DNA of 64,000 nt. Origin: Sphingopyxis sp. CCNWLW2 (GTDB lineage: Bacteria > Pseudomonadota > Alphaproteobacteria > Sphingomonadales > Sphingomonadaceae). Below are positions 18,926 to 48,112 of the stretch, piece after piece (the stretch's first letter is position 1; each line of letters starts with the position of its first letter). The stretch is taken from the NCBI RefSeq assembly GCF_037095755.1, contig NZ_JBAWKJ010000002.1, forward strand, positions 992,001-1,056,000, written 5' to 3'. The translations under genes were made by a program, and so were the position numbers. Below the pieces are notes generated by a model, which had not been told where the DNA came from, made no database searches, and was given only the letters and a program-made list of their open reading frames with translations.

Positions 18926-18938
18926 ATAGCATTCTAAG
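18926..18938. promoter_or_regulatory. Regulon palindrome, site 1
   Basis: ATAGCATTCTAAG on the plus strand (CTTAGAATGCTAT on the other) sits 45 bases from the HMG-CoA-lyase start and 60 bases from the CoA-transferase start. It is one of eight variants of TTAG-N4-CTAA found in this catabolic region, always upstream of genes and mostly between divergent ones. Confidence 0.6.
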
Positions 18939-18998
18939 TATACAAAGGCCATGGGCGAGGCAGGTCGTCTTACCAGAGTCGGCCGCGAAAGGAACGAT

Positions 18999-20162
18999 AT
19001 GAGCGAGACATGCAGCGGGGGCGCGCTGGAAGGCATCAGGGTGGTCGAGATGGGGCAGCTGATCGCGGGCCCCTTCTGCGGCCAGCTGCTCGGCGACATG
19101 GGAGCCGAGATCGTCAAGCTCGAACCGCCGGAGACCGGCGACCAGATGCGCAACTGGGGCCAGGGCGACAAGCCGAGCTGGTGGCGCGTGATCGCGCGCA
19201 ACAAATATTCGGTCGCGGTCGATTTGCGGTCGAAGGAAGGTCAGGCACTCGCGCGCGAGCTGATCGCCAAGGCCGATATCCTCATCGAGAATTTCCGTCC
19301 CGGGACGCTCGAAAAATGGAACCTTGATCCCGCTGACCTCCGCAAGACCAACCCCGGGCTGATCGTCGTGCGCGTGTCGGGCTATGGCCAGACCGGTCCT
19401 TACTCCGCGCGCGCGGGTTTCGGCGGCATTGGCGAGGCGATGGGCGGCTGGCGCGGCATCGTCGGCTATCCCGACCTGCCGCCCGCGCGCATGGGGGTGT
19501 CGATCGGCGACACGCTCGCCGCGACATATGGCTGCATGGGCGCGCTCGCCGCGCTCCACCACCGCAGCAAGACTGGTGAAGGCCAGATCGTCGATTCGGC
19601 GCTTTATGAAGCGGTGCTGCAGGTGATGGAATCGACCGTGTCCGACTATTCGGCGAGCGGCACCAAGCGCCGCCGCACCGGATCGACGCTGCCCGCGATC
19701 GCGCCGTCGAATGTCTATCCGTGCAAGGATGGCGAATATCTGATCGGCGCCAATCAGGACGGGGTTTTCGCGCGCCTCGCCGCCGCGATGGGGCGCCCCG
19801 AACTCGCCAGCGACGAGCGTTATGCGACGCACCGCGCGCGGGGCGTGCGGCAGGAGGAGCTCGACGCGCTGATCGGCGAATGGACGAGCACGCTGACGAT
19901 CGCCGAACTCGAAGCGAAGATGGTCGAAGCGGGGGTTCCCGCTGGCCGCGTGTTCGATGCCGAGGACATGATGAGCGATCCGCATTTCGCCGCGCGCGAT
20001 GCGCTGGTGACGGTTGAGGATGCCGAGTTCGGCGAAGTCACGATGCAAGGCGTGTTCCCGAAACTGTCGGCGACGCCGGGCAGCGTGCGTCGCCCTGCTC
20101 CGTTGACGGTCGGGCAGGACAGCGCCGATGTGCTGAAACGCTGGCTCGGACGGGAGGCCTGA
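18999..20162 (+). CDS. CaiB/BaiF family (type III) CoA-transferase
   Basis: A 387-residue type III CoA-transferase, which moves CoA from a donor thioester to a free acid. Family features are the start GIRVVEMGQLIAGPFCGQLL, LGDMGAEIVKLEPP, NKYSVAVDL, and the conserved Asp region in ADILIENFRPGTLEKW. ATG 18999 has AAAGGAA at 18988; upstream in-frame codons lack similarity. A GST follows five bases later. With the divergent HMG-CoA-lyase homologue it could activate and then cleave a hydroxy-acid; the same enzyme pair type occurs in itaconate/citramalate breakdown. Substrates are not deducible from sequence alone. Confidence 0.9.
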   Translation: MSETCSGGALEGIRVVEMGQLIAGPFCGQLLGDMGAEIVKLEPPETGDQMRNWGQGDKPSWWRVIARNKYSVAVDLRSKEGQALARELIAKADILIENFRPGTLEKWNLDPADLRKTNPGLIVVRVSGYGQTGPYSARAGFGGIGEAMGGWRGIVGYPDLPPARMGVSIGDTLAATYGCMGALAALHHRSKTGEGQIVDSALYEAVLQVMESTVSDYSASGTKRRRTGSTLPAIAPSNVYPCKDGEYLIGANQDGVFARLAAAMGRPELASDERYATHRARGVRQEELDALIGEWTSTLTIAELEAKMVEAGVPAGRVFDAEDMMSDPHFAARDALVTVEDAEFGEVTMQGVFPKLSATPGSVRRPAPLTVGQDSADVLKRWLGREA

Positions 20163-20166
20163 CGCG

Positions 20167-20871
20167 ATGATTACGCTCTATGGTGGCCCCACCCCCAACG
20201 CGCGCAAGATCGCGATCGCACTTCTCGAAATGGGACTCGAATGGCGGCTCGAATATATCGACATCCTCGCGGGCGATCAGCTGACCCCCGAGTTCCTCGC
20301 GCTCAACCCGAACAACAAGACGCCGGTGATCGTCGATGACGAAGGTCCCGGCGGCAAGCAGTTCGTGCTGTGGGAAACCGGCGCGATCCTTCTCTATCTC
20401 GCCGAAAAGAGCGGGCGCTTCATGCCGGCCGATCCGGTGAAGCGCGCGATCTGCTGGCAATGGCTGATGTTCCAGGTGTCAGGGGTCGGCCCAATGTTCG
20501 GGCAGGAAGTGCATTTCTCGCACTACGCCAAGGATCGGCACGAATATGCGATCGAGCGCTACAGCCGCGAGGTCGACCGGCTGATGATGGTGCTCGACAA
20601 GCGCCTCGGCGAGGCCGCGTGGCTCGCGGGCGACGATTATACGATCGCCGATATGGCGACGCTGCCCTATCTGCGCCGCCAGCTGATCGAAAAGGCCGGG
20701 CGTTTCCCCAATGTCGATCGCTGGGGCGCCGCGATGCTCGAACGCCCCGCGGTCGCCGAAGGCATGACCGTCGGCGTCGCACGCGCCGAGACGATCGAGG
20801 GCGGGCTCACCGGTTTCACCGACGAGCATCGCGCGATCCTGTGGGGCGACCGCCAGCACGCAAAGCGCTGA
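20167..20871 (+). CDS. Glutathione S-transferase family protein (Nu-class-like)
   Basis: A 234-residue GST. The thioredoxin-fold N-domain starts MITLYGGPTPNARKIAIAL and has NPNNKTPVIVDD (cis-Pro) and the glutathione-binding ETGAILLYLAEKSG; the helical C-domain follows from about residue 95, with the DYTIADMATLP N-capping motif. The TPNARK start resembles YfcG/YghU-type enzymes that act as disulfide reductases or remove glutathione. GGGAGG at the end of the CoA-transferase gene provides the ribosome site, so it is co-transcribed. It is one of four GSTs in the regulon; the next one converges on it three bases away. Confidence 0.9.
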   Translation: MITLYGGPTPNARKIAIALLEMGLEWRLEYIDILAGDQLTPEFLALNPNNKTPVIVDDEGPGGKQFVLWETGAILLYLAEKSGRFMPADPVKRAICWQWLMFQVSGVGPMFGQEVHFSHYAKDRHEYAIERYSREVDRLMMVLDKRLGEAAWLAGDDYTIADMATLPYLRRQLIEKAGRFPNVDRWGAAMLERPAVAEGMTVGVARAETIEGGLTGFTDEHRAILWGDRQHAKR

Positions 20872-20874: not shown

Positions 20875-21600
20875 TCAGTCCTTCGCAACCGCCGCATGGT
20901 TCGCGGCACCGAACATGTTCGACCATTCCTTGTCGTCGAGCTTTTGGTGGCGGCCGACATATTTGGCCGGCGCCTTCAGATCCTCGCGCGCCATCGCACG
21001 CGCGACCGCCGGGCGTCCGCGGATCCGTTCGAACCAGCCATGCATCGCGGGCCATTCGTCGAGGCCCATGCCCATCACGAATGCGGAAGCGCGACCCGGC
21101 CAGATCGCCATGTCTGCGATGCCATACGCCTCGCCCGCGACATAGGCGCTCTTTTCCAGCCGCTTTTCGAGCACAGTGAGCAGACGCGTCACTTCCTTCG
21201 TGTAGCGTTCGACCGCATAGTCCTGCCCCGCGGGCGCATAGCGCAGGAAATGGCTCGCCTGTCCGCCCATCGGCCCGAGTGCCGCCACCTGCCAGGTCAG
21301 CCATGACAAGGTCGCCGCGCGCGCCGCGCCCGACGCGGGAAGGAAGCGCCCGCTTTTCTCGGCCAGATATTGCAGGATCGCGCCCGACTCGAACACGGTG
21401 ATCGGATCGCCTCGACCTGCCGGATCCTGATCGACGATCGCGGGCAATTTGTGGTTCGGGTTGATGCGCCCGAACGCGGCGGTCAGCTGGTCGCCGTCGA
21501 AAATGTCATAGGAAATGACGCGGTAGGGTTCGCCGATTTCCTCGAGCATGATCGCGATCTTCTGGCCGTTCGGGGTCGCCGAATAATGGAAGTCGATCAT
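20875..21600 (-). CDS. Glutathione S-transferase family protein (YfcG/Nu-class-like)
   Basis: A 241-residue GST with N-domain start MIDFHYSATPNGQKIAIMLE, NPNHKLPAIVDQ and ESGAILQYLAEKSG, and a helical C-domain with YGIADMAIWP. The TPNGxK motif is that of Nu-class GSTs such as YfcG, which bind two glutathiones or act as disulfide-bond reductases. ATG 21600 lies one base after the TGA of the DUF3237 gene, so the two are an operon driven from the 22109-22230 region, opposite a TonB receptor. A paralogue with the same motifs lies beyond that receptor at 24593. Confidence 0.9.
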   Translation of the reverse strand: MIDFHYSATPNGQKIAIMLEEIGEPYRVISYDIFDGDQLTAAFGRINPNHKLPAIVDQDPAGRGDPITVFESGAILQYLAEKSGRFLPASGAARAATLSWLTWQVAALGPMGGQASHFLRYAPAGQDYAVERYTKEVTRLLTVLEKRLEKSAYVAGEAYGIADMAIWPGRASAFVMGMGLDEWPAMHGWFERIRGRPAVARAMAREDLKAPAKYVGRHQKLDDKEWSNMFGAANHAAVAKD

Positions 21601-21601
21601 T

Positions 21602-22108
21602 TCACAGCACCTCGTGGATCGCATGGCGCACCCCGAAATCGGTACGCTCGCCGACGCCGACCGCGAGCACGCCGTTCAGCCAGCCATATTTGACGCTCGC
21701 AGTTTCGAACACCGGCGCGATTCGCAGATAGTATCGCGACGGATCGGCGTCGGGGACAGCGGGATCGATGAAGGTCGCGCGCACATCGTCGGGAATGATG
21801 TTGCGGCCGGTGTAGCTGAGGTAAATGAGCTCGCCGTCGTCGGTCTGCCACACCGCACGTGCATCGAAGGTGCCGACCGAAGCATCGTCGCCCAGCCGCC
21901 CGCTGCGCGACCAGTTGCCGCCACCGGGGAGTACTATGCCATTGATACGCGGACCGAAAAAGCGGCCGCCGCTGATATAGCCGAGCCGCTGATCGCCGAA
22001 CGGCGACGCGCCGATGCCGATGATCCCGCCTCCCACCTCGAACTCGACGGTGCACAGATGGCGCGTCGCGAGTGCGACCGGGGTGATCTGCGTATTTTCT
22101 TCGTTCAT
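21602..22108 (-). CDS. DUF3237 family protein
   Basis: A 168-residue single-domain protein of the DUF3237 family, a small beta-barrel fold of unknown function common in catabolic clusters of Proteobacteria. Recognisable stretches are FEVGGGIIGIGASPFGDQRLGYISGG cut into TVEFEVGG and GGRFFGPRINGIVLPGGGNW, DARAVWQTDDGELIYLSYTG, and YYLRIAPVFETAS. No signal peptide, membrane helix or catalytic motif is seen. ATG 22108 has AGAGGA eight bases upstream; an upstream in-frame ATG at 22168 lies inside the operator region and is rejected. It is co-transcribed with the following GST. Confidence 0.75.
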   Translation of the reverse strand: MNEENTQITPVALATRHLCTVEFEVGGGIIGIGASPFGDQRLGYISGGRFFGPRINGIVLPGGGNWSRSGRLGDDASVGTFDARAVWQTDDGELIYLSYTGRNIIPDDVRATFIDPAVPDADPSRYYLRIAPVFETASVKYGWLNGVLAVGVGERTDFGVRHAIHEVL

Positions 22109-22149: not shown

Positions 22150-22161
22150 TTAGTATACTAA
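22150..22161. promoter_or_regulatory. Regulon palindrome, site 2 (perfect)
   Basis: TTAGTATACTAA is a perfect 12-base palindrome between the DUF3237-GST operon (41 bases away) and the TonB receptor (69 bases away). It is identical to the core of site 8 at 48100-48111. Confidence 0.65.
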
Positions 22162-22163: not shown

Positions 22164-22178
22164 GTCAATCAGATTGAC
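22164..22178. promoter_or_regulatory. Second dyad upstream of the TonB receptor
   Basis: GTCAATC and GATTGAC form perfect seven-base arms around one A, two bases from the regulon palindrome. The outer GTCAA-N5-TTGAC pattern recurs in the long inverted repeat at 30441-30475, so a second regulator may act here. Confidence 0.45.
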
Positions 22179-22230: not shown

Positions 22231-24495
22231 ATGAAGGCGCATAACCAGTTCCTGCTGTCCGGCGTGGCGGCGATCGCAATGCTTGCCAATGCCGCACCGG
22301 CGATGGCGCAGGCCGCCCCTGCCGACACGGCGGACGTCGACGACAGCAACGCAAACGAGATCATCGTCACCGCGCAGAAGCGCGAACAAAATTTGCAGAA
22401 CGTGCCGATTTCGATGGAAGTCGTCAGCGGCGCCAAGCTCGCCGAGTTCAACACCAGCGATATCAAGGCGGTGATGAACTACACGCCGAACGTGTTCGTC
22501 CAGTCGACCGCGGGCAACGACGTCATCTATATTCGCGGCTTCGGTTCGCCGCCGGCGAACTTCGCCTTCGACCAGTCGGTTTCGCTCTATGTCGACGGCA
22601 TCTATGCCGGCCGCAACCGCCAGGCGCAGGCCCCCTTCTTCGACCTCGCACGCGTCGAAGTGCTGCGCGGGCCGCAGGGCGCGCTGTTCGGCAAGAACAC
22701 CGCGGCGGGCGCGGTCAGCGTCGTGTCGGCGGGTCCGACGAAGGATTTCGAAGGCGCGATCACCGGCCTTTACAACTTCGATCACAAGGGCACCGACTTC
22801 TCGGGCTATCTGTCAGGGCCGATCAGCGACACGCTCGGCGCGCGCTTCGCGTACAAGATCGTCAACCAGGACGGCTATATCTATAACCGCGCGACCGATC
22901 ACGACGACCCCGAAATCAAGTCGCAGCTGCTGCGCCTGACCGTGAAGTGGGAACCGTCGAACAATTTCGACTACACCGCGAAGATCGAGTACGGAAACCG
23001 CGAGGTCATCGGCGGAATCACCGTATCGAGCCCGTTAACCAGCGGCCAGGACCCGCAGACCACGCGCTATCTCGAGCGCTCGGCGCTCGGCGACGAGGGG
23101 AACAACAACAAGTCGGTGATGATCTCGGGCGTCGGCAACCTCGCGCTCGGCGATTTCACGCTGACCTCGGTCACCGGCTACAGCTGGTTCAAGTCAAAGA
23201 TCGTCAACGGCTTCGACCAGACGATCCCGAACAGCGGCGGTGCGTTTACGGCCAATTCGGTCTACAACGCCTTCCCCGAACGTTTCGACCAGATTTCGCA
23301 GGAAATCCGCATCCTGTCGCCGACGGGCAAGACTTTCGAATTCATCGCGGGCGCCTATTACGACAAGTCCGATTACACGCTGGAGCAATTTCAGGGCTTC
23401 AACATCGCGGCGCTCAACTATTTCGGCCGCATCGACAGCCTTTTCCGGCAAAAGGCTGAATCCTGGTCGGTCTTTGGCCAGGCGACGTTCAACATCAGCG
23501 ATGCCTTCCGCGCGATCGGCAGCCTGCGTTACAGCCACACGAAGAAGGACGGCAGTTTCGCCTCGCGGCTCGTCTATGGCCCCTTCGCGCTGCGCCCGAT
23601 CTCGAGCGCGACGGGTTCGATCAGCGAAGGCAATGTCGATCCGTCGGTGACGCTGCAGTACGACATCGCGCCGCGCATCATGGTCTACGCGACGTGGGGC
23701 CGCGGCTCGAAATCGGGCGGCTTCGTCTCGAACACGCTCGGCACGACAAGCGCGACCTTCTCGTTCGAGCCCGAACAGTCCGAGAATTTCGAGGCCGGCA
23801 TCAAATCGACGCTGTTCGACGGCAAGGTCGTCGCGAACGTCTCGGCCTATCATACCAAGTTCAAGGATTTGCAGGTTTCGGTCTATCAGCCCGCGATCTC
23901 GAGCTACCTGACCGGCAATGCCGCCGCGGCAACGTCGAAGGGCGTCGAAGGATCGCTCAGCATCTTCCCGATCCCCAATTTCGACATCAGCGCGTCGGCC
24001 GCCTATTCGGATATCAAATATGACGACTATCCCGGCGCGGCCTGCCTCGCCAGCCAGCCGTTGTCGGTTTGCAATCCCGCACAGACCGATCGGACGCAAC
24101 CGAACCACGTCGCGAACAATAACCTGGCCGGTTACCCCGTTGCCTATTCGTCGAAGTTCACGGGTAGCGTCACGGCACACGCGCGGTTCGACCTGTCGAG
24201 CGATCTGAAATTCGACATCACCGGCGTCGCGTCGGCTCGGTCGAAATATTTCAATTCGGACAACCAGAGCCCGATCTTCGGTGTCCAGCGCGGCTATGCG
24301 AAGCTCGATCTTCGCGTTCAGCTGGCCGATCAGGACGACCGCTGGCACGTCGCACTCGTCGGCAAGAATCTGACGAACGAAAAGACGATCGGCAGCGCGT
24401 TCAACCTGCCGGCGCCGATCACCGCGGCGCCGCGCGCGATCCTCTATCTCGAACCCACCCGCAACATTTCGGTCGAGGCCGGGGTCAAGTTCTAG
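22231..24495 (+). CDS. TonB-dependent receptor of the catabolic regulon
   Basis: A 754-residue outer-membrane receptor. It begins with a signal peptide (MKAHNQFLLSGVAAIAMLAN, cleaved near AMAQA), then the plug start EIIVTAQKREQNLQNVPISM, RVEVLRGPQGALFGKNTAAG in the plug, and a beta-barrel ending in Phe (EAGVKF). ATG 22231 is set by the signal peptide and by GGGAGGG six bases upstream. The gene lies between two GST genes and has the regulon palindrome and a second dyad in front, so it probably imports the substrate of the regulon. The identity of that substrate cannot be read from the barrel. Confidence 0.93.
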   Translation: MKAHNQFLLSGVAAIAMLANAAPAMAQAAPADTADVDDSNANEIIVTAQKREQNLQNVPISMEVVSGAKLAEFNTSDIKAVMNYTPNVFVQSTAGNDVIYIRGFGSPPANFAFDQSVSLYVDGIYAGRNRQAQAPFFDLARVEVLRGPQGALFGKNTAAGAVSVVSAGPTKDFEGAITGLYNFDHKGTDFSGYLSGPISDTLGARFAYKIVNQDGYIYNRATDHDDPEIKSQLLRLTVKWEPSNNFDYTAKIEYGNREVIGGITVSSPLTSGQDPQTTRYLERSALGDEGNNNKSVMISGVGNLALGDFTLTSVTGYSWFKSKIVNGFDQTIPNSGGAFTANSVYNAFPERFDQISQEIRILSPTGKTFEFIAGAYYDKSDYTLEQFQGFNIAALNYFGRIDSLFRQKAESWSVFGQATFNISDAFRAIGSLRYSHTKKDGSFASRLVYGPFALRPISSATGSISEGNVDPSVTLQYDIAPRIMVYATWGRGSKSGGFVSNTLGTTSATFSFEPEQSENFEAGIKSTLFDGKVVANVSAYHTKFKDLQVSVYQPAISSYLTGNAAAATSKGVEGSLSIFPIPNFDISASAAYSDIKYDDYPGAACLASQPLSVCNPAQTDRTQPNHVANNNLAGYPVAYSSKFTGSVTAHARFDLSSDLKFDITGVASARSKYFNSDNQSPIFGVQRGYAKLDLRVQLADQDDRWHVALVGKNLTNEKTIGSAFNLPAPITAAPRAILYLEPTRNISVEAGVKF

Positions 24496-24592
24496 GTTCG
24501 AATATGATGTCCCAGGGATCGGCCGCGATCGAAGCTTCCTCGACGGGGAAGCGGCGATCGCGGTCGTGACCTGTATGAAGGGGTGAAGCGCG

Positions 24593-25303
24593 ATGATCGA
24601 CGTCTATTTCACACCCACGCCGAACGGCCACAAGGTTTCGATCATGCTCGAAGAGATCGGGCTGCCGCACCGATTGCTCGTGATGAACATGCTCGAGGGC
24701 GATCATCTCACCCCCGAATATCGCCGCATCAACCCCAACGGCCGCCTGCCCGCGATCGTCGACCATGATCCGATCGGCGGCGGCGCGCCGTTGCCCATAT
24801 TCGAATCCGGCGCGATCCTGCTCTATCTCGCCGAGAAGAGCGGGCAATTGCTTCCCGAAAGCCCGCGCCGCAGATCGCAGGCGCAGCAATGGCTGATGTG
24901 GCAAATGGCGAGCTTCGGCCCAATGCAGGGACAGGCGCACCACTTCATCCGCTATGCGCCCGAGGGGCAGACCTATCCGGTCGAACGCTATCGCAACGAG
25001 ACGTTGCGGCTGCTGCATGTGCTCAACGGGCGGCTGAGCGAGGCCGATTATCTGGCGGAAGAATATTCGATCGCCGACATCGCGGCGTGGCCGTGGACGC
25101 GCGCGATCCGCGCGATCGGGCTGACGCTCGACGACTATCCCGCAGTCGCCGACTGGTTCGCGCGCATCGGCGAGCGCCCCGCCGTGATGGCAGGGACCGA
25201 CGTCAAGAACGCCGCCAACCTGTCGAGCGCGCGCCCGGTGCTAACCGAGGAGCAATGGTCGAACCTGTTCGGGAAGAATATGCTCGAGGCGCCGAGGCGG
25301 TGA
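24593..25303 (+). CDS. Glutathione S-transferase family protein (YfcG/Nu-class-like)
   Basis: A 236-residue GST related to the one at 20875-21600: start MIDVYFTPTPNGHKVSIMLE, NPNGRLPAIVDH, ESGAILLYLAEKSG, and C-domain YSIADIAAWPWTR. Both share a C-terminal EEQWSNLFG-like or DKEWSNMFG-like end, suggesting duplication around the receptor gene. It follows the TonB receptor by 97 bases and is probably in its operon. A palindromic repeat block follows its stop. Confidence 0.9.
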   Translation: MIDVYFTPTPNGHKVSIMLEEIGLPHRLLVMNMLEGDHLTPEYRRINPNGRLPAIVDHDPIGGGAPLPIFESGAILLYLAEKSGQLLPESPRRRSQAQQWLMWQMASFGPMQGQAHHFIRYAPEGQTYPVERYRNETLRLLHVLNGRLSEADYLAEEYSIADIAAWPWTRAIRAIGLTLDDYPAVADWFARIGERPAVMAGTDVKNAANLSSARPVLTEEQWSNLFGKNMLEAPRR

Positions 25304-25428: not shown

Positions 25429-26196
25429 TTACACGGTATCCGCATGCCCCCACTGATATTCGACCTTGCCGTCCAGCCGCCGCACCGCGACCCAGTCGCC
25501 GCCCGCGAGGCTGTCATCCTCGATCAGCGCCGCAACACCTTCCGCGATATCCTCGGGCCGGCACGCCTCGTTGTTCGCAAGCACCGTCTTCATCCATTCG
25601 GACTTGCCGCCCGCCCCGGTCGTGTCGAGGATCGGGGTGTCGACCAGCCCCGGCAACATGCCCGCGACACGCACATTGCACTCGTCCTTCAGCGGCGCGC
25701 AGCAGCGCGTGAACATCATCACCGCCGCCTTGGTCGTCGCATACATCGCGTCGTAGAAGCCGGTGCCGAGCGCGACGGTCGACACGGTGTTGATAATCAC
25801 CCCGCCGCCGCGCTCACGCATCGCCTGCACCGCGATCTGCGTCGCCGCGACGAGCGAGGTGATGTTGACGTCGATGATCCAGCGGATGCGCGCGGCGTCG
25901 ACGTCGGGAAATTGCGGCAGGCCCGACACGACCCCGGCGTTGTTGTGCAATATGTCGACGTCGCCGTGCGCACGAAACCAGGCTTCGGTCGCGGGAATGT
26001 CCGACAGGTCGAGTATGTGGACGCTCGCCCGCGCGCCCTCGGCCTCGACCAGCCGCGCGGTCTCGGCGAGCCCCGCTTCGTTGACGTCGACGAGCGCGAT
26101 CTCCGCCGCGCCGCGGCTGGCCAGCATCACCGCGGTCGCGCGGCCGATGCCGCCCGCCGAGCCCGTCACGATGGCGGTCTTGCCGTTGATATCCAT
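25429..26196 (-). CDS. SDR-family NAD(P)-dependent oxidoreductase
   Basis: A 255-residue classical short-chain dehydrogenase/reductase. It has the cofactor motif TGSAGGIGRA (TGxxxGxG, residues 11-20), DVNEAG with an Asp that favours NAD, the structural NNAG, the active-site TVSTVAL serine and YATTK (YxxxK). No membrane segment or signal. ATG 26196 has GGGAGA upstream; the frame stays open far upstream but that part lies across the divergent MFS gene. It is controlled from the divergent region holding palindrome site 3. Substrate, an alcohol or ketone, unknown. Confidence 0.9.
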   Translation of the reverse strand: MDINGKTAIVTGSAGGIGRATAVMLASRGAAEIALVDVNEAGLAETARLVEAEGARASVHILDLSDIPATEAWFRAHGDVDILHNNAGVVSGLPQFPDVDAARIRWIIDVNITSLVAATQIAVQAMRERGGGVIINTVSTVALGTGFYDAMYATTKAAVMMFTRCCAPLKDECNVRVAGMLPGLVDTPILDTTGAGGKSEWMKTVLANNEACRPEDIAEGVAALIEDDSLAGGDWVAVRRLDGKVEYQWGHADTV

Positions 26197-26248
26197 CTCT
26201 TCTCTCCCGTCGATCTTGTCGTTACCGTAAAGCACATTGACAGATAAA

Positions 26249-26262
26249 CTTAAATACCTAAG
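26249..26262. promoter_or_regulatory. Regulon palindrome, site 3 (degenerate)
   Basis: CTTAAATACCTAAG keeps the outer CTTA and TAAG halves, with GTATTTT-like bases after it as also seen at site 5. It lies between the divergent SDR (52 bases) and MFS (42 bases) genes. It is the weakest of the eight sites. Confidence 0.45.
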
Positions 26263-28484: not shown

Positions 28485-28494
28485 GGAGAGCATC

Positions 28495-28890: not shown

Positions 28891-28900
28891 GGAGTTAGCC

Positions 28901-30475: not shown

Positions 30476-30506
30476 CAAGATGATAAAGAGACGGGGAGAG
30501 GATAAG

Positions 30507-38618: not shown

Positions 38619-38619
38619 G

Positions 38620-39750: not shown

Positions 39751-39773
39751 CGTCTCTCCTGTTTATGATTATG

Positions 39774-41408
39774 TCAGCGGGTGACTTCAAAGGGCAGCTC
39801 GTACCCCTCAAGCCCCGCGCGGATCGCTTTCTTGTCGATCTTGCCCGTCGGCCCCAGCGGGATTTCCGCAACGAACAATATGTCGTCGGGCATCCACCAT
39901 TTGGCGATCTTGCCGTCGAGAAAGGATTTGAGATCGTCGGCGGAGGCGCTGGCGCCGGGCTTCAACTGGCACAGCAGGATCGGCCGCTCGTCCCATTTCG
40001 GATGCGCGATCCCGACAACGGCGGCGTTGGCGACCGCCTCATGCCCCATCGCGATATTCTCGATCTCGATCGAGCTGATCCACTCGCCGCCCGACTTCAC
40101 GACATCCTTCGCGCGGTCGGTGATCTGCATATAGCCTTCGCCATCGATCGTGCTGACGTCGCCGGTGTCGAAGAAGCCTTCGGCGTCGAGCACGTCGCCA
40201 CCCTCGCCGCCATAATAGCCGCCCGCGATCGTCGGCCCCTTGACCATCAGCCGCCCCGGCGTCTTGCCGTCGTGCGGCAGGCGGTTGCCCGCATCGTCGA
40301 CCAGCTTCATCTCGAGTCCGCAGAGCAGCCGGCCCTGCTTGAGCTTATACGCCATCTGCTCGGCGTCGGATTTCGCCGCGACCGCGGCACTGGGCACCGA
40401 CACCGTGCCGAGCGGCGAGGTTTCGGTCATGCCCCAGCCCTGGATGACGTCGACACCATAATCGTCGCGGAACGTCCGGATGATCGATTCGGGGCACGCC
40501 GATCCGCCGATCGTGACGCGCTCCAGCGTCGTGAAGCGCTTTCCATTTTCCTGCATATATTGCAGCAACATCTGCCACACTGTTGGCACGGCCGCCGAAT
40601 AGGTCACGCCCTCCTCTTCGATCAGATTATAGATCGATTCGCCGTCCATTCGTTGCCCGGGCAAGACCAGCTTCGCGCCGACCGCGGGCGCCGAATAGAC
40701 GACGCCCCACGCATTGGCATGATACATGGGCACGACGAGCAGCACCGTATCGCGCGCCGACAGGCCGAGTGCGTCGCGCTGCAAGGTCATCAGCGCATGG
40801 ATATAGTTAGACCGATGCGAATAGAGCACGCCCTTGGGATTCCCCGTCGTGCCGCTGGTATAGCAAAGCCCGCACGCCGCATTTTCGTCGAACCCGCCCC
40901 AGACATATTCGGCGGGTTGCCCGGCAATCCAGTCGTCGAAGGCGGTCGCGGCAAAGCTGGTTTGCGGCATCGACGCAGCGTCGCAGAAAAAGATCACCTT
41001 CTCGATCGACGGCACCTGCGGCAGCAATTGCTCGACGAGCTCTGCGGTCGCCGGGTCGGCGATCAGCAGCCGATCGCCCGCGTGGTTCGCGATATAGGCG
41101 ATCTGTTCGGGAAAGAGCCGCGGGTTGAGCGTATGGAGCACCGCCCCCATCCCCGCCGCACCGTACCAGGCGGCGAGGTGCCGCGCGCCGTTCCACGCCA
41201 TCGTCGCGACACGGTCGCCGGGCTTAATCCCCTCGGCGGCGAGCGCGTTCGACACGCGCTTCGCATCGGCATGGACGTCGGCCCAGGTCGAGCGGGTGAC
41301 GCGCCCTTCGGCATCGCGCGACACGATCTCGCGCGCGCCGTGCCAGTTCGCCGCATGATCGATGATCCGGTCGACCGTCAGCGGCACATTCTGCATCAAC
41401 CCGTCCAT
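39774..41408 (-). CDS. Fatty-acid-type acyl-CoA ligase (AlkK-like)
   Basis: A 544-residue ANL ligase of the medium/long-chain fatty acid group related to AlkK. Motifs: CYTSGTTGNPKGVLYSHRS (A3), GWGMTETSPLG (A5), GFFDTGDVSTIDGEGYM (A7), TDRAKDVVKSGGEWISS (A8) and GPTGKIDKKAIR (catalytic Lys). Activates an acid to acyl-CoA for beta-oxidation. It reads away from the MarR gene at 41555 across palindrome site 5, which lies 30 bases before its start. The operon at 39.75-34.74 kb follows in the same direction after 23 bases, so they may be one transcript. Confidence 0.92.
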   Translation of the reverse strand: MDGLMQNVPLTVDRIIDHAANWHGAREIVSRDAEGRVTRSTWADVHADAKRVSNALAAEGIKPGDRVATMAWNGARHLAAWYGAAGMGAVLHTLNPRLFPEQIAYIANHAGDRLLIADPATAELVEQLLPQVPSIEKVIFFCDAASMPQTSFAATAFDDWIAGQPAEYVWGGFDENAACGLCYTSGTTGNPKGVLYSHRSNYIHALMTLQRDALGLSARDTVLLVVPMYHANAWGVVYSAPAVGAKLVLPGQRMDGESIYNLIEEEGVTYSAAVPTVWQMLLQYMQENGKRFTTLERVTIGGSACPESIIRTFRDDYGVDVIQGWGMTETSPLGTVSVPSAAVAAKSDAEQMAYKLKQGRLLCGLEMKLVDDAGNRLPHDGKTPGRLMVKGPTIAGGYYGGEGGDVLDAEGFFDTGDVSTIDGEGYMQITDRAKDVVKSGGEWISSIEIENIAMGHEAVANAAVVGIAHPKWDERPILLCQLKPGASASADDLKSFLDGKIAKWWMPDDILFVAEIPLGPTGKIDKKAIRAGLEGYELPFEVTR

Positions 41409-41438: not shown

Positions 41439-41451
41439 ATAGTATGCTAAG
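41439..41451. promoter_or_regulatory. Regulon palindrome, site 5
   Basis: ATAGTATGCTAAG, followed by TATTTT, lies 30 bases from the AlkK-like ligase start and 103 bases before the MarR gene. It may serve for MarR autoregulation as well as ligase control. Confidence 0.6.
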
Positions 41452-42012: not shown

Positions 42013-42588
42013 CTAGGCCGACAGCGCCTTCGCGACCGCGATCAGCCGTCCGGCGGTCATTTCGACCAGCGACGCCGGCAGCGGCTCCTTCAAGCTGCCA
42101 TCCTCGGCAAAGGCGGCGTGCGCATTCGGCACCAGCACCTGTTCGGGAATCACCAGCATCTGGATCGTCGAGAGTATCTGGCGCAGATGCATCAACCCGC
42201 GGAGCCCGCCGAACGGACTGATCGACGCCGACATGATCGCCGCCGCCTTGCCGCGATAGGCGGTCAGCGCAACCATACCCTCGTCCCCGGTCGGGCGGGA
42301 GGCCCAGTCGATGGCGTTTTTGAGCAACGGTGTGAGCGAGCCATTATATTCGGGGGAGATGAAGAGCAGGCCGTCCTGCGCGACGAAAAGCGCCTTAAGC
42401 TTCAGCGCGTCGGACGGAAAATCGTTCGCCTCGCGCGCCGCCGAATAGAGCGGCAGGTCGAACGCTGCGAGATAGACCCGCGTCACGGTTGCGCCCTGCG
42501 CTTCGAGACTCGCCGCGGCGACCTCGCCCAATGCGCGGTTGAACGATCCCTCGCGGGTGCTGCCGACGATGACGGCGATGCTGGTCAT
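42013..42588 (-). CDS. NADPH-dependent FMN reductase family protein
   Basis: A 191-residue flavodoxin-like NAD(P)H:FMN or quinone reductase. FMN-phosphate loop GSTREGSFNRAL (residues 9-20), FISPEYNGSLTPLLKNAIDW (SPEYNxSxP signature near 76-95) and GLRGLMHLRQIL are clear. Soluble, probably tetrameric like its family. GGGAGG lies upstream of the ATG. Palindrome site 6 lies 19 bases before the start. It may supply reduced flavin or reduce a quinone intermediate. It is convergent with the MarR gene at 41555. Confidence 0.9.
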   Translation of the reverse strand: MTSIAVIVGSTREGSFNRALGEVAAASLEAQGATVTRVYLAAFDLPLYSAAREANDFPSDALKLKALFVAQDGLLFISPEYNGSLTPLLKNAIDWASRPTGDEGMVALTAYRGKAAAIMSASISPFGGLRGLMHLRQILSTIQMLVIPEQVLVPNAHAAFAEDGSLKEPLPASLVEMTAGRLIAVAKALSA

Positions 42589-42607: not shown

Positions 42608-42621
42608 GTTAGAATGCTAAC
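42608..42621. promoter_or_regulatory. Regulon palindrome, site 6
   Basis: GTTAG-AATG-CTAAC, five-base arms, directly upstream of the flavin reductase gene and just beyond the 3' end of the second MarR gene. It is the only site not between divergent genes, so it must act on the reductase. Confidence 0.65.
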
Positions 42622-42653: not shown

Positions 42654-43160
42654 TCAGGCCTTGATGTCGGAAAGCACCGCGAGCTTGCGCGTTTCATCGC
42701 CAAGATTGTCGATGACGCGGCGCATCAGCCCCTGCAGCACCTCGACCTCTTCGTCGGTCATCCCCTTGGTGGCGATCTCGTGAATCTCGGCGTTCATCGG
42801 CGCGAGGATCAGTTCGAGCTTCTTCGCATGCGGGGTCAGGTGAATGAAGGTCTTGCGGCGGTCGTCGGCGGTCTTCTTGCGCGTGATCAGCCCGGCCTTT
42901 TCCAGTCCCTTGAGCGCAACGACCGTCGTCGGTTCGCGCATGCCGACGCGTTCGCTGAGTTCGCGCTGGGTGATGCCGTCCTCGCGCCATAGCTGGCGCA
43001 GGAAACGCCACTGTCCCGCCGACACGTCGTGCGTCAGCGTGCGGCGCTCGAGCAACCGCGAGAAAGACCGGAAAACGACGCGCGCCAGATAGCCGATGCT
43101 GTTTTCCGGATCGGTATAATATTCGGCTGGATGCCGGTAATCCTGTGTTTTCTTTGCCAA
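42654..43160 (-). CDS. MarR-family winged-helix regulator
   Basis: A MarR regulator. With the TTG start proposed here (43160) it has 168 residues and reads MAKKTQDYRHPAEYYTD; GGGGAG lies seven bases upstream of that TTG, whereas the only in-frame ATG (43268) adds an Arg-rich, poorly conserved 36-residue head. The DNA-binding domain has ITQRELSERVGMREPTTVVAL and the wing TRKKTADDRRKTFIHLTP. The long N-terminus before the winged helix (RTLTHDVSAGQWRFLRQLW) is typical of MarR proteins in aromatic-acid clusters. It is divergent from the LeuD-like gene across palindrome site 7 and is the other candidate regulator of the regulon. Confidence 0.82.
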   Translation of the reverse strand: MAKKTQDYRHPAEYYTDPENSIGYLARVVFRSFSRLLERRTLTHDVSAGQWRFLRQLWREDGITQRELSERVGMREPTTVVALKGLEKAGLITRKKTADDRRKTFIHLTPHAKKLELILAPMNAEIHEIATKGMTDEEVEVLQGLMRRVIDNLGDETRKLAVLSDIKA

Positions 43161-43322: not shown

Positions 43323-43338
43323 ACTTAGAATACTAAGT
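43323..43338. promoter_or_regulatory. Regulon palindrome, site 7
   Basis: ACTTAG-AATA-CTAAGT, six-base arms, 13 bases before the LeuD-like GTG start and 162 bases before the proposed MarR start. So close to the start codon, bound protein would block ribosome-site transcription of leuD. Confidence 0.65.
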
Positions 43339-43351: not shown

Positions 43352-43936
43352 GTGCAAAAATTTACCCGGACGAAAGCAGTCGCGGCCCCGCTGCCACTCG
43401 CCAATGTCGACACCGACATGATCATCCCCGCGCAATATATGAAATCGCTGACCCGCTCGGGGCTTGGTAAACATCTGTTTCGCGAGCTTCGCTTTGCGGC
43501 GGACGGGAGCGAGCGTAGCGATTTCATCCTGAATCAGCCGACATGCCGTAGTGCGCAGGTGGTCGTCGCCGACCGCAATTTCGGCTGCGGGTCGTCACGC
43601 GAGCATGCGGTGTGGGCGCTCACCGACTTCGGCATTCGCTGCGTCATCGCGCCAAGCTTCGGCGATATCTTTGCTGGGAACGCCCGCAAGAATGGCCTGC
43701 TGCTGATCCGCCTGCCCGACGCAACATGCGCGCGGCTGCGCGACGAAATCGCGCTCGCCCAATATGCGCCGGTCGAGGTCGATCTGGATGCACAGCAGAT
43801 ACGGCTCGCGTCGGGCGAGGCGATCGATTTCGCGATCGATCCCGATGATCGCCGGATCCTGATGGATGGGCTCGACGACATCGCCCGCACGCTGCGCCAC
43901 GCCGATGCGATCGCGCGGTTCGAAGCGACGCTCTAG
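43352..43936 (+). CDS. LeuD-type small subunit of an isopropylmalate dehydratase family hydro-lyase
   Basis: A 194-residue swivel-domain subunit. Features: PLPLANVDTDMIIPAQYMK start (VDTDxIxP), NFGCGSSREHAVWAL (substrate-binding SSREH) and APSFGDIFAGNARKNGLL. The start is GTG (43352) with GGAGG four bases upstream; an overlapping ATG at 43350 is in another frame. It pairs with the convergent LeuC-type gene ten bases beyond its stop. The set lies in a catabolic regulon with no other leucine-biosynthesis genes, so it probably acts on citraconate/2-methylmalate or a similar branched hydroxy-diacid rather than isopropylmalate; this is inferred. Confidence 0.88.
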   Translation: MQKFTRTKAVAAPLPLANVDTDMIIPAQYMKSLTRSGLGKHLFRELRFAADGSERSDFILNQPTCRSAQVVVADRNFGCGSSREHAVWALTDFGIRCVIAPSFGDIFAGNARKNGLLLIRLPDATCARLRDEIALAQYAPVEVDLDAQQIRLASGEAIDFAIDPDDRRILMDGLDDIARTLRHADAIARFEATL

Positions 43937-43945: not shown

Positions 43946-45358
43946 CTAGCCGGGCACTTCGGGCACCGCGATGCAGCCCGCAATCGCACTCGCCGCCGCG
44001 AGAGCCGGGCTCATCAAATGGGTGCGCCCGCCGCGCCCTTGCCGGTTCTCGAAATTACGGTTCGACGTCGCGGCACAGCGCTCGCCGGGCAGCAGCCGAT
44101 CGGCGTTCATGCCGACGCACATCGAGCAGCCGGGCTCGCGCCAGTCGAACCCCGCGTCGCGCAGGATGCGGTCGATCCCCTCTTCCTCGGCCTGCCTTTT
44201 GACCAGCCCCGACCCCGGCACGACCATCGCGCGAACATGCGGCGCGACGCGGCGGCCGCGCACGACCTCTGCGACGACGCGCAAATCCTCGATCCGGCTG
44301 TTGGTGCAGCTGCCGATGAACACGCGGTCGAGCCGCAATCCGGCGATCGGTGCGCCCGGCGTCAGGTCCATATAGGCAAGCGCACGTGTCGCTGCCGAAC
44401 AGGCTTCGGCGTTCGTCAACGCAGCCGGATCGGGAACCAGTCCGTCGATCGCGGCAACCTGCGAGGGGTTCGTGCCCCAGCTTACCATCGGCCGGACATC
44501 GCGCGCGTCGACGCGTATCTCGCGATCGAATAGCGCCCCATCGTCACTTGCGAGGGTCGCCCAGCGCGCTTGCGCTATATCCCACGCCCTCCCTCCGGGC
44601 GCCGCGGGCCGACCCGCCAAATAGGCGAAGGTTGTCGCATCGGGTGCGACCAGTCCCGCGCGCGCGCCCATTTCTATGCTGAGATTGCAGAGCGTCATTC
44701 GCGCCTCCATCGACAGCGCGCGAACGGCTTCGCCGGCATATTCGACGACATGCCCTCCCGCACCGTCGACGCCGATCACGCCGAGCAGGTGGAGCGCGAG
44801 ATCCTTGGCGTGGACGTGCGGCGCGAGCACGCCATCGACCGTCACGCGCATGTTGCGCGACCGCCGCTGGCGGATCGTCTGCGTCGCCAGCACATGCTCG
44901 ACCTCCGACGTGCCGATGCCGAACGCCAGCGCGCCGAAGGCGCCATGGGTCGAGGTGTGGCTGTCGCCGCAGACGATCGTCATTCCCGGCTGCGAGCGCC
45001 CCTGTTCGGGGCCGACGACATGGACGATGCCGCCGCGCGGGTCACCCATCGGGAAATTCTCGATCCCGAAATGGCGTGTATTGCTGACCAGCGCTTCGAG
45101 TTGCGCGCGCGCTTCGGCATCGGCAACCCCGGCGGGGCCCGCCGCCTGACCCGCGGTCGGCACATTATGATCGGACAGCGCGAGCGCGAGCTCGGGACGC
45201 CGCACCGCCCGACCTGCCGCCGCCAGCCCCGCGAAGGCTTGCGGCGAGGTCACCTCATGGAGCAGGTGCAGGTCGATATAGAGCAAAGTTTCGCCGTCAT
45301 CCTCGGCGACGGCGTGCGCATCCCATATCTTGTCGTAAAGCGTGCGGGGCCGGTTCAC
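43946..45358 (-). CDS. LeuC-type large subunit of an isopropylmalate dehydratase family hydro-lyase
   Basis: A 470-residue aconitase-superfamily subunit (usual length about 467). The [4Fe-4S] ligands are Cys in [10 protein letters not shown] and the CxxC of [29 protein letters not shown] is the family signature near 130-150. It starts with GTG at 45358, overlapping the TGA of the preceding acyl-CoA dehydrogenase gene (GTGA). LeuC and LeuD normally lie together on one strand; here they converge with separate promoters. Catalyses reversible dehydration/hydration of a 2- or 3-hydroxy diacid. Sequence is that of ordinary bacterial LeuC, so the substrate is judged from context only. Confidence 0.9.
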
Positions 45359-46650
45359 AGTTTCCCGATCGTTTCGCGCCGCGGCCCCATAAATCCGAAC
45401 AGATAGGCTGCGACCTTTCGCATTTGTATTTCCTCGGCGCCTTCGGTGATGCGGTAGCGGCGGTGGTGGCGGTAGATATGTTCGAACGGCTTGTGGCGTG
45501 AGTAGCCGATGCCGCCATGGACCTGCATCGCGCGGTCGGCGGCTTCGCAGACGAGCCGGTTCGCCCAGTAGTTGCACATGCTGACCTTGTCGGAGAGCGT
45601 GCGCTCGACCTCCTTGTGCGGGGTATTGTCCATGTCCCACGCGGTCTTGCGAATGAGCAGGCGCAGCATCTCGGCCTGCGTCGCCAGCTCGACGAGCGGG
45701 AACTGGATCGCCTGGTTCTTCGCCAGCGCCTCGCCGAACGGCTTGCGGGTCCGGGCGTATTTCACGCTTTCCTCGATGCAATAGACCGCGGCGCCGAGCG
45801 ACGATGCCGCCTGCCGGATGCGGTTCTGGTGGACGAAGCTCTGCGCGATCGCGAGGGCGCCGCCCTCGGGGCCGAGCCGCGCGCTGTCGGGAACCCACAC
45901 ATCGCTGAACGTCATCCTTGGATGGTCGGTCGGCATGTTGAACGTCCACAGATACTCATCGACCGTCATGCCCGGCGTGCCGGTCGGCACGAGCAGGCAG
46001 GTGATGCCCTTCGCATCGCCGTCCTCGCCGCTGGTGCGGCAGAAGGTCGCGCAGTGCGTCGCGCTGTGCATGCCGGTGATCCACATCTTGCGCCCGTCGA
46101 TCCGCCAGCCGTCGATGCCGTCGCGGGTCTCCTTGACCGCGCGCGTCTCCATATGCGTTGCGTCGCTGCCATGGTCGGGCTCGGTCAGCCCGAACGCAGT
46201 GCGGCGCTTGCCTTCGAACCCGCCGAGGATAAATTCCTGCTTCTGCTCCTCGCTCGTCGCGAACTGCTCGAACATCTCGACGAAGGGGAAGTTGCCGACG
46301 ATGCTGTGCTCGTTCTGGAGGTCGTTGTGGAGGCCAAGGCCCTTCGCCGCGAAGTGCTCGCGGATCACCGCCATCGCGAGGTTCGAGCCGTCCTTGCCGC
46401 CGTATTTCTTCGGCGCCGAGAAGCGCCAGTGGCCCGCGGCGTCGGCCTTGCGGGTGGCTTGGCGTAGCAGCGCTTCCCACTCGTGGCGCGGCAGCCCCTG
46501 ATTGTCCCAGTCGGTGCGTGCATGCTCGCGCCGATGGTCGAAGAAGCGGATATTGTCGTCCGCCAGTTCGAGCGGCCTGATCTCGGCCTCGATAAACGCG
46601 TCGAGCTCGTCGAGATACGCCTGCAAGGCGGCGGGCATCGCAAAGTCCAT
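45355..46650 (-). CDS. Acyl-CoA dehydrogenase (long form)
   Basis: A 431-residue acyl-CoA dehydrogenase. FAD/substrate stretch [37 protein letters not shown] and the C-terminal [26 protein letters not shown] (as [20 protein letters not shown]) with [12 protein letters not shown] are clear. The N-terminus ([20 protein letters not shown]) is that of the FadE-type group often encoded beside APH-fold phosphotransferases, as here. ATG 46650 has GGAGAG upstream. It lies between the phosphotransferase and LeuC-type genes in one operon. Probably oxidises the CoA ester formed by one of the two CoA ligases. Confidence 0.92.
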
Positions 46651-46669
46651 GTCTCTCTCCCTGTTATCT

Positions 46670-48013
46670 CTATCCGCGCCAGTCGGCGCGCGCCGCGGCG
46701 AGCGCGGCATATTTGGGGCTGTCGATCGCGCATTTATCGAGCACATCGCGCCGCAGCTTCGCGAGCAGGCCGGGTTCGGCGAGCGTCGTGGTTCCTGACA
46801 GCAAGGCCTCCGACAGCGCCTTGTCCTCGGCGCGCACGCCCGCACCCAGGTCACGCAGCACGATGCTGAGCGCGTTCATCGCGACCACCGCCTCGAACTT
46901 TGCATGCCCCTCGGCGCCCGGCTTGATCGATCCCTCGATCCAGTCGCGCACCGCCTGCACGATCTCGCGGTTCGTCGGCTCGCCGGTCGGCGCCGGTGCA
47001 GCGCCGGGAGACGCGGGCAGCGCCCTTCCCCGCTCGGCCTCGGGCACCTCGTCCTCGAGCAAGCGAACGAGGTCGAGCTCCTGCTCCGCCGTCCGCCGGC
47101 CGATGACGACGCGCTCGACCGTCGGGTCGGCGCCGCTCCGCCACATCTGCCCCATCTGCAGGCAGCCGAGCGCCCACCAGAGCGTCCGGTAGATCAGCCA
47201 GAAGCGGAAGCGGCCGCGATCGACCTTCGTCCCGCCCGCCGCCTCATAGGCCGCAAAATACTCCTCGAGGCTGCCGACCCCGAACGCCGGTTTATCGAGC
47301 ATGCCGAAGCGCCAGACGGTCATGCAGCCGAACGCCAGATCCTCATGCGCGTCGCCGCGGTGCGCGAGTTCCCAGTCGAGCACCGCCGCCAGACCGTCGG
47401 CGCCCACCATCACATTGCCCATGCGGTAATCACCGTGGACGAGCACCGGCGGCGCCGGTTCGGGCAGATGCTCCTCGCACCAGCGGATCGCCAGCGCGAT
47501 CACCGGGCGGTCGCCGCCGTACGACAGAAAGCGCGAGCGCAGCTCCGCCAGCGCCGCCGCCGTGTCCATCAGCGGGATCGCAGCGGGCACGCGGTCCAGT
47601 GGGATACGGTGGATCCGTGCCAGCTCGCGGCCGAGATCCTCCAGCAGCGACGGCGGCGGACCCGCCAAGATCATCGCCGGCGACACCTCCGCCCGCACCC
47701 GCCGCATCACATAACCCGTGCCCAGCCCGTCGCCCGGCTCCAGCACCCCGACGACCTCGGGCGCCTTCACCCCCGCATCAAACGCCGCCATCACCAGCGC
47801 CGCCTCGTCGACATGCCCGAACGGGCGGTCCGCCATATAATCCGCCGACGGCGCGCGCCGCAGCACATAGCCCGACGTCCCGCCCGCACCCGCCCAATCG
47901 AACGCGAAGCTCTCCATGTTCGCACCGCCCGACAAACGCGTCAGACCCGACAAAACGCCAGAACCGACAATCCGGGTCATCAAGGCTGGGAGTAGGGCCG
48001 CAACGTCGGTCAT
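46670..48013 (-). CDS. APH-fold phosphotransferase fused to DUF6285 domain
   Basis: A 447-residue two-domain protein. Residues 1-330 are an APH-fold kinase: LSGGANMESFAFDW, VLRRAP lysine, PVLVHGDYRMGNVMV (HGDxxxxN) and AVLDWELAHRGDAHEDLAF (DxE/D metal motif). Residues about 345-447, from GEPTNREIVQAVRDWIEG to AALAAARADWRG, match the small DUF6285 domain, usually a separate gene next to such kinases. The pairing with acyl-CoA dehydrogenase resembles eukaryotic ACAD10/11, where the kinase phosphorylates 4-hydroxyacyl-CoA before elimination. Start 48013 is preferred; an in-frame ATG at 48088 would give a 25-residue head and lie close to the palindrome. It heads the operon with acyl-CoA dehydrogenase and LeuC. 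Confidence 0.85.
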   Translation of the reverse strand: MTDVAALLPALMTRIVGSGVLSGLTRLSGGANMESFAFDWAGAGGTSGYVLRRAPSADYMADRPFGHVDEAALVMAAFDAGVKAPEVVGVLEPGDGLGTGYVMRRVRAEVSPAMILAGPPPSLLEDLGRELARIHRIPLDRVPAAIPLMDTAAALAELRSRFLSYGGDRPVIALAIRWCEEHLPEPAPPVLVHGDYRMGNVMVGADGLAAVLDWELAHRGDAHEDLAFGCMTVWRFGMLDKPAFGVGSLEEYFAAYEAAGGTKVDRGRFRFWLIYRTLWWALGCLQMGQMWRSGADPTVERVVIGRRTAEQELDLVRLLEDEVPEAERGRALPASPGAAPAPTGEPTNREIVQAVRDWIEGSIKPGAEGHAKFEAVVAMNALSIVLRDLGAGVRAEDKALSEALLSGTTTLAEPGLLAKLRRDVLDKCAIDSPKYAALAAARADWRG

Positions 48014-48098
48014 GCGAACGGCATCCCGCGCACGGATAATCTGAACATATTTGGCATTCCACCCCGCATCGCCGGCGCCTTCTCGCATGGTTGTTTTG

Positions 48099-48112
48099 CT
48101 TAGTATACTAAC
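48099..48112. promoter_or_regulatory. Regulon palindrome, site 8 (perfect core)
   Basis: CTTAGTATACTAAC contains the perfect palindrome TTAGTATACTAA (48100-48111), identical to site 2. It lies upstream of the phosphotransferase operon and 106 bases before the divergent cupin gene, and is the last regulon site found. Confidence 0.65.

Follow-up and report, generated by a model that had tools for sequence, protein, structure and literature searches.

What controls the catabolic genes that lie between positions 18926 and 48112 of a 64,000-nucleotide stretch of the Sphingopyxis sp. CCNWLW2 genome? This stretch (G000:C2:992001-1056000, in a genome of 4.62 Mb) is referred to here as the window. A preliminary description of it proposed that eight variants of the palindrome TTAG-N4-CTAA tie a 29-kb gene set to a single regulator, most likely one of two MarR proteins encoded within the set. 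We computed the sites, their intergenic position and conservation, their overlap with promoter-like boxes at some promoters, and their co-occurrence with regulators. In the arrangement that we regard as probable, these genes form a catabolic regulon under two repressors of the MarR type, each with its own kind of operator: MarR2 would act at TTAG-N4-CTAA and MarR1 at a second operator, GTCAA-N5-TTGAC.

All eight TTAG-N4-CTAA variants are present, four of them exactly where they had first been placed and the other four one or two bases away. By gene calls from a codon-usage model, which leave 4,021 of the 64,000 bases of the window non-coding, all eight are intergenic and seven lie between divergent genes, as originally described; the sole exception is site 42609, between the same-strand genes for MarR2 and an FMN reductase. 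The candidate operators, which carry no strand, are listed with their scores, for which the matrix was derived from the eight sites themselves.

18926..18937: TTAG-type operator ATAGCATTCTAA, between the HMGL-like lyase (-) and CoA-transferase III (+) genes; score 24.6
22150..22161: TTAG-type operator TTAGTATACTAA, between the DUF3237 (-) and TonB receptor (+) genes; score 20.7
26250..26261: weak TTAG-type operator TTAAATACCTAA, between the SDR1 (-) and MFS (+) genes; score 17.6
33553..33564: TTAG-type operator ATAGAATACTAA, between the ligase A (-) and MetE-like (+) genes; score 22.5
41439..41450: TTAG-type operator ATAGTATGCTAA, between the ligase B (-) and MarR1 (+) genes; score 24.2
42609..42620: TTAG-type operator TTAGAATGCTAA, upstream of the FMN reductase gene (-); score 24.8
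43325..43336: TTAG-type operator TTAGAATACTAA, between the MarR2 (-) and LeuD-like (+) genes; score 28.5
48100..48111: TTAG-type operator TTAGTATACTAA, between the LeuC-ACAD-APH2 operon (-) and the cupin gene (+); score 25.0

Sites 22150 and 48100 are the two perfect 12-base palindromes (TTAGTATACTAA) that had been noted, and the weakest of the eight is 26250 (CTTAAATACCTAAG). With at most one mismatch, TTAGNNNNCTAA has nine matches in the window where shuffled sequences lead one to expect 2.3, and none of 100 shuffles reached nine; the ninth match, TTAGGACGCGAA at 43220, is below a score of 14 with the site matrix. The eight sites score from 17.6 to 28.5 and everything else in the window less than 14, a separation that is partly by construction because the matrix was built from these same sites. 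An RNA-element reading of the palindromes was dropped, as no Rfam family matches positions 18000-49000 at its gathering score.

A search with a MarR2 alignment yielded 81 confirmed loci, the best 80 of which were all mapped and scored with the matrix from the eight window sites at a threshold of at least 16. The 39 loci with a MarR2 of at least 84% identity contain 165 intergenic and no coding TTAG matches, and the other 41, with more distant MarR2 proteins, contain 75 and one. Together these are 240 intergenic matches and a single coding one, though the coding sequence exceeds the intergenic 6- to 11-fold; 60 symmetric column-permuted matrices average 2.1 intergenic matches on the distant set, with a maximum of 22. 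The same promoters carry TTAG sites in relatives despite altered gene order, namely those of LeuC or APH2, LeuD and MarR2, FMN reductase, MarR1 and ligase B, MetE and ligase A, SDR1 and MFS, and DUF3237 and the receptor. Site 22150 is kept upstream of the receptor in relatives, and a site of the 26250 type stands at the equivalent place in L070, L072, L076 and L129. Among 42 distinct sequences upstream of ligase B, most operator columns are at least 95% identical and most flanking columns are variable. That the eight palindromes are conserved control sites of an uptake-and-breakdown gene set is well supported; as first proposed, the palindrome behaves as a predicted operator linking uptake, CoA-ligase, GST, SDR, lyase and dehydratase genes.

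Across the whole genome, TTAGNATNCTAA with at most one mismatch has 17 copies compared to 25 for a reversed control pattern, so the pattern as such is not over-represented. Seven of the 17 fall inside the 29-kb span, which is 0.6% of the genome (0.107 expected; Poisson P ~3e-11, or ~5e-9 once 158 spans are allowed for). Exact TTAGNATNCTAA occurs in 35 of 298 genomes of the family, in 8 of the 16 with a MarR2 match (E<=1e-25) versus 27 of the 282 without one (Fisher P 1e-4). One family genome, G016, holds ten exact copies, those listed being TTAGGATACTAA or its complement, with no MarR2 match at E<=1e-25; these are probably a dispersed repeat.

The claim of a single regulator is not supported, as a second palindrome is present in the region. 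We enumerated all exact 5-base inverted repeats with gaps of 0-9 in the 107 intergenic regions of six clusters that lack MarR2 and contain a homolog of MarR1 (38-47% identity); no TTAG site was found in these six clusters. GTCAA-N5-TTGAC is the top palindrome, in 8 of the 107 regions and five of the six genomes, with the runner-up in four regions. In 200 Markov resamplings no palindrome exceeded five regions, and GTCAA-N5-TTGAC itself was found in none. It also ranks first in seven 20-kb stretches of MarR2 clusters (5 of 68 regions, with TTAGT-N2-ACTAA in three). There are five exact copies in the whole genome; the window has two of them, at 22164 and 30451, together with a one-mismatch copy at 26227, and two further one-mismatch matches, at 23203 and 31257, are both inside genes. 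Scores here are from a matrix of 29 intergenic matches in the six MarR1-only clusters, used with a threshold of 16.

22164..22178: second-type operator GTCAATCAGATTGAC, abutting site 22150, centres 15.5 bp apart; score 14.6
26227..26241: second-type operator GTAAAGCACATTGAC with one mismatch, its centre 21.5 bp from that of 26250; score 16.6
30451..30465: second-type operator GTCAACTAAGTTGAC, about 49 bp upstream of GSTd-VOC; score 26.5

At score 16, this matrix finds 22 intergenic matches and one coding match in 19 loci outside the matrix set, where 100 permuted matrices average 0.41 with a maximum of 6. The second operator abuts or neighbours two of the TTAG sites and stands alone before GSTd-VOC. 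Site 30451 is the core of a 33-bp perfect palindrome (30442-30474) that overlaps the end of the SMP-30 gene; the GTCAA core is conserved and the outer arms are not kept in all relatives. Of 30 loci compared at GSTd, 24 (L216-L238 and L243) have a GTCAA site upstream of the gene; its distance to the start is 49-53 bp in 23 of these and, judged by sequence, similar in L224. None was found at this place in L239-L242, L244 and L245, where identity is 51-71%. The 25 aligned sequences upstream of GSTd conserve TTGACN, a 17-bp spacing, a TA box and the G of an extended -10 at 90% or more.

At the receptor promoter, for which 28 loci from 26 of 32 genomes were compared, both operators occur with centres 15.5 bp apart in 19 loci, where L212 and L215 represent one site. 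Only the TTAG site is present in four loci (L201, L207, L208 and L209) and only the GTCAA site in two (L206 and L213). In L203 both operators occur, apart from each other, and L197 has a TTAG site with a degraded GTCAA site. Upstream of a second receptor gene, L214 (49% identity), are a TTAG-like site scoring 16.4 and, 713 bp upstream, a GTCAA site. Between SDR1 and MFS the spacing of 21.5 bp, taken from coordinates in the window, recurs in L070, L072, L076 and L129.

Which protein reads which operator? Both regulators have a MarR winged-helix domain above the curated cut-off, which places them in the MarR family.

42654..43160, minus strand: MarR2, Pfam MarR (PF01047) 55.0 bits, cut-off 24.6; proposed repressor at TTAG-N4-CTAA
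41555..42004, plus strand: MarR1, Pfam MarR_2 (PF12802) 34.7 bits, cut-off 27; proposed repressor at GTCAA-N5-TTGAC

MarR1 scores 21.0 bits with PF01047, under the cut-off of 24.6. A PDB sequence search returned clear relatives for MarR2 and only weak ones for MarR1, and 10 of the 12 named relatives of MarR2 at 96-99% identity are from Sphingopyxis. The presumed recognition helix has an RQ core in MarR1 homologs and an R-(E/D)-x-TT core in MarR2 homologs. Orphan MarR2 genes in L154, L159, L161 and L162 encode the same recognition helix and have no TTAG site nearby; three of these four adjoin a lone APH1 kinase gene.

We tabulated regulators and intergenic sites (score at least 16) in 35 rows of our own choosing, 20 genomes and 15 loci, taking MarR1 status from whole-genome searches for the 20 genomes and 11 locus rows and from local maps for L163, L171, L175 and L176. 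L172 and L174 were counted as MarR1-bearing though their MarR1 is only 36% identical. Nine of the 80 loci belong to genomes already in the table; 56 were left out, mostly because they comprise only 10 kb around MarR2 and stop short of the receptor or GSTd, as were distant MarR2 matches (37-39% identity) in G196, G149, G178 and G150 and the second MarR1 loci of G201 and G101. GTCAA sites occur in 20 of 25 rows with MarR1 versus 1 of 10 without, and TTAG sites in 19 of 27 rows with MarR2 versus 1 of 8 without (Fisher P 2e-4 and 0.011, tests that ignore shared ancestry); the crossed pairs give P 0.27 and 0.43. Within the 27 MarR2-bearing rows, none of which contributed to the GTCAA matrix, GTCAA sites are in 14 of 17 with MarR1 versus 1 of 10 without (P 8e-4). 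The clearest single cases are two from Parasphingopyxis, G074, with ten TTAG sites, and L166, with five; neither has a GTCAA site, nor a MarR1 homolog at E<=1e-10 in its genome. Five of the six MarR1-only clusters have GTCAA sites without TTAG sites and these two Parasphingopyxis cases are the reverse, from which we infer that MarR2 reads TTAG-N4-CTAA and MarR1 reads GTCAA-N5-TTGAC. MarR2 is thus the better candidate of the two for the regulator first proposed, though not as a single regulator confined to 29 kb.

Two convincing TTAG sites lie outside the window, at C1:2202448 (CTTAGTTTGCTAAG) and C1:2205891 (CTTAGCATACTAAG). They belong to a second locus near C1:2.20 Mb (L012, G000:C1:2198000-2212000), where paralogs of MarR2 (53% identity, C1:2210553) and MarR1 (38% identity, C1:2204014) are found with genes for DUF3237, two TonB receptors, MFS, acyl-CoA dehydrogenase, sulfatase and FMN reductase. 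Besides its two TTAG sites this locus has one GTCAA-type site, GTTAAGTTTCTTGAC, adjoining the MarR1 paralog. The predicted TTAG/GTCAA regulon extends to this second locus. The preliminary description had noticed no site beyond the 29-kb span; this is correct for the window, where nothing else scores 14 or more, and incorrect for the genome, with these two sites and possibly C1:1747940. The last (L013:4941; CTTAGAATGCTATT, score 19.4) is flanked by a TetR-type gene and by a TonB receptor gene followed by a sulfatase gene; it is a possible extra member of the regulon. L177 and L181 have an arrangement resembling that of the second locus. Lone genome matches L014-L018 and L020, with scores of 12.3-15.5, were dropped as regulon sites, L014 and L016 containing distant ACAD- and SDR-like genes (27-34% identity); L019 was also dropped, at a score of 19.5, with no gene matching the gene set at E<=1e-5.

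How might the operators act? In the alignment of 42 distinct sequences upstream of ligase B, a TTGCAA-17 bp-TACTAT pair is seen with TACTAT inside the operator, and in the window operator 41439 overlaps a -10-like box of ligase B. We counted, over distinct sequences, promoters of the form TTG-N16..18-TAnnnT whose second box overlaps the operator; these counts have no shuffled control and mainly test the TTG, because the operator itself supplies TAnnnT. The pattern is present at ligase B (39/49), FMN reductase (35/41), APH2 (10/10), ligase A (21/36) and HMGL (4/5), and is rare at the regulator genes (MarR1 8/51, MarR2 11/50), which have their own conserved box pairs about 50-110 bp beyond the operator in an alignment read by eye. 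Genes outside the counts are ABH2, APH1, VOC, SnoaL, cupin, GSTa, two non-regulon genes and 35 unnamed targets. A -10-like box inside the palindrome at several enzyme promoters fits repression, and the overlap suggests plain repression; it fits a repressor that would block several enzyme promoters and mostly spare its own gene.

Several observations weigh against this arrangement of two repressors and two operators. Eight of the 27 MarR2-bearing rows lack a TTAG site at 16 or above; the site is absent at the orphan MarR2 genes of G021, G085, G242 and G277 (68-73% identical, with the same VGMREPTTVVALK helix) and in L180, L171 and L175, and neither site occurs in L168, a Parasphingopyxis metagenome-assembled genome in which MarR2 stands alone. 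In G089 a single TTAG site is present without MarR2, and 27 family genomes with no MarR2 match still hold exact TTAG sites. GTCAA sites are missing from 5 of the 25 MarR1 rows (G099, G219, L151, L172 and L174), and one weak-looking GTCAA match, in G021, is present without MarR1; a GTCAA match near the ligase B promoter of G122 is probably spurious. Genome-wide, GTCAA-N5-TTGAC with at most one mismatch is at chance level (108 versus 105 for the control), and site 22164 reaches only 14.6 with the GTCAA matrix. The promoter pattern was never seen at MetE (0/42), the TonB receptor (0/8), MFS (0/7), SDR1 (0/5) or DUF3237 (0/8), and was in the minority at LeuD (15/41), LeuC (7/23) and CoA-transferase (2/9).

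Among the alternatives, MarR2 alone could control the whole set through TTAG-N4-CTAA, with the GTCAA palindrome unrelated or minor. The eight TTAG sites do cover nearly every operon of the span, and G074 and L166 retain the gene set with TTAG sites only, but the three places that have GTCAA sites in the window have them in relatives too, and the sites follow MarR1 and overlap promoter-like boxes at GSTd; we consider this alternative unlikely. It is also improbable that the assignments are swapped, or that the TTAG site is recognised by the two MarR proteins alike or by a mixed dimer of them. Each MarR gene adjoins a TTAG site and has a paralog at the second locus, where the TTAG operator is found again, but seven of eight MarR1-only clusters have no such site, the same two Parasphingopyxis cases carry the sites without MarR1, and the presumed recognition helices differ (RQ core versus R-E/D-x-TT).

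The -10-like boxes within the palindrome at several promoters raise the idea that the TTAG palindromes are symmetric bidirectional promoters only, TAGNAT serving as a -10 box on both strands. This pure promoter symmetry was rejected and has very little likelihood: the conserved arms extend past the -10 hexamer, seven of 17 genome matches crowd into 0.6% of the genome, the palindrome is missing from seven of eight MarR1-only clusters of similar make-up, and an operator of this form is already known in the MarR family. Chance AT-rich matches in GC-rich DNA, to which the genome-wide counts not exceeding the reversed control might point, are refuted by the 240 to 1 ratio in 80 related loci and can be disregarded.

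With two repressors and two operators, the following mechanism is proposed. MarR2 would bind the SlyA-like CTTAG-N4-CTAAG at the eight places in the window, its dimer covering the -10 box at several enzyme genes and able, where a site lies between divergent genes, to shut both sides. MarR1 would bind GTCAA-N5-TTGAC, whose TTGAC arm would double as the -35 box at GSTd-VOC, and would also sit at the receptor/DUF3237 and MFS/SDR1 promoters. The uptake promoters (TonB receptor and MFS), having both operators, would open only once both repressors release; the other site-bearing promoters would respond through a TTAG operator only and GSTd-VOC through a GTCAA operator only. As inducers, intermediates of the pathway are probable, such as acyl-CoA thioesters formed by the regulon's two ligases. 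Protein-site pairing, repression, ligands and two-input logic are all inferred. We put forward more tentatively, as possible but short of probable, a two-input gate of two MarR repressors answering to different ligands, with one operator over -10 boxes and the other over -35 boxes, placed back to back at the uptake promoters at a fixed spacing (15.5 or 21.5 bp). Here the regulator-operator pair would move as a unit, as at the second locus, and would control an undescribed glutathione- and CoA-dependent pathway across Sphingomonadales and Phenylobacterium-like bacteria, with related sets in gammaproteobacteria.

The genes under these sites, assigned by Pfam except for the cupin-like protein, are as follows.

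17978..18880, minus strand: HMGL-like lyase
18999..20871, plus strand: CoA-transferase III and GSTa
20875..22108, minus strand: GSTb and DUF3237
22231..25303, plus strand: TonB-dependent receptor and GSTc
25429..26235, minus strand: SDR1
26305..31736, plus strand: MFS, SDR2, SnoaL, CMD, SMP-30 lactonase-like, GSTd and VOC, of which GSTd-VOC also sits behind operator 30451
31952..33517, minus strand: acyl-CoA ligase A
33597..34655, plus strand: MetE-like (Meth_synt_2) protein
34737..41408, minus strand: operon of ligase B, hydrolase ABH2, APH1 kinase, enolase paralog, 2-hydroxyacid dehydrogenase and hydrolase ABH1
42013..42588, minus strand: NADPH-dependent FMN reductase
43352..43936, plus strand: LeuD-like dehydratase subunit (Aconitase_C)
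43946..47917, minus strand: operon of APH2 (APH-DUF6285), acyl-CoA dehydrogenase and LeuC-like protein (Aconitase)
48219..48632, plus strand: cupin-like protein, NCBIfam matches below cut-off

Read as a pathway, the set would take up its substrate by the receptor and MFS and process it with four GSTs, two acyl-CoA ligases, one CoA transferase, the HMGL-like lyase and a LeuCD-like dehydratase. The MetE-like protein is below the cut-offs of the NCBIfam methionine synthase models; the PDB sequence search gave clear relatives for it and only weak ones for ABH2, APH1 and APH2. The enolase paralog (36346-37644) scores 471 bits with NCBIfam enolase (cut-off 300), but compared to E. coli enolase it has His370 replaced by Ala, Glu168 by Asp and Asn155 by Gly, the other 13 checked positions being kept; it may act on another phospho-acid. 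Together with the 2-hydroxyacid dehydrogenase and an APH kinase it could carry a C3 acid towards phosphoenolpyruvate. At 46670-47917 an APH kinase is fused to DUF6285 and adjoins the acyl-CoA dehydrogenase and LeuC-like genes; by analogy this protein may be a 4-hydroxyacyl-CoA kinase, and kinase-plus-dehydrogenase handling of 4-hydroxyacyl-CoA would fit the SMP-30 lactonase-like gene. Bacterial LvaA/LvaB is a further kinase-plus-dehydrogenase system, and DUF6285 would be the counterpart of LvaB.

If correct, this regulon provides candidate operator sequences for two MarR subfamilies and ties about 30 genes into one circuit; we found no description of the widespread sphingomonad pathway to which they belong. 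It would also offer a naturally occurring composite operator at which the inputs from two related repressors are separable, and its membership narrows the search for the substrate. MarR repression is ordinary in kind, and the two-operator design is one that we have not found described: our literature searches gave, among the papers listed, no account of this system.

The first operator has the same TTAG-N4-CTAA shape as TTAGCAAGCTAA, which is recognised by SlyA of Salmonella and E. coli (PMC2156107, in the part available); sites of this form are present here, and MarR2 is predicted to bind them. The alignment of MarR2 with SlyA covers the DNA-binding region, where the recognition helix is similar in part and the DRR wing is shared. 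However, its identity to E. coli SlyA in that alignment is only 28%, it stays below the cut-off of the NCBIfam SlyA model PRK03573 (45.9 bits, cut-off 120), and its predicted targets here are catabolic, unlike those of SlyA, of which H-NS antagonism at hlyE is a feature. The APH kinase gene adjoining an acyl-CoA dehydrogenase gene recalls the 4-hydroxyacyl-CoA kinase plus dehydrogenase of the ACAD10/11 type (PMC12440821 and PMC11342911, both available in part), as an enzyme analogy only. Further parallels are FerC of Sphingobium SYK-6 and CouR, MarR repressors of catabolic genes that CoA thioesters release from their sites (PMC5487221). The likeness is that of a MarR repressor of a catabolic gene set, and the present set is unlike them in its two operators and its gene content.

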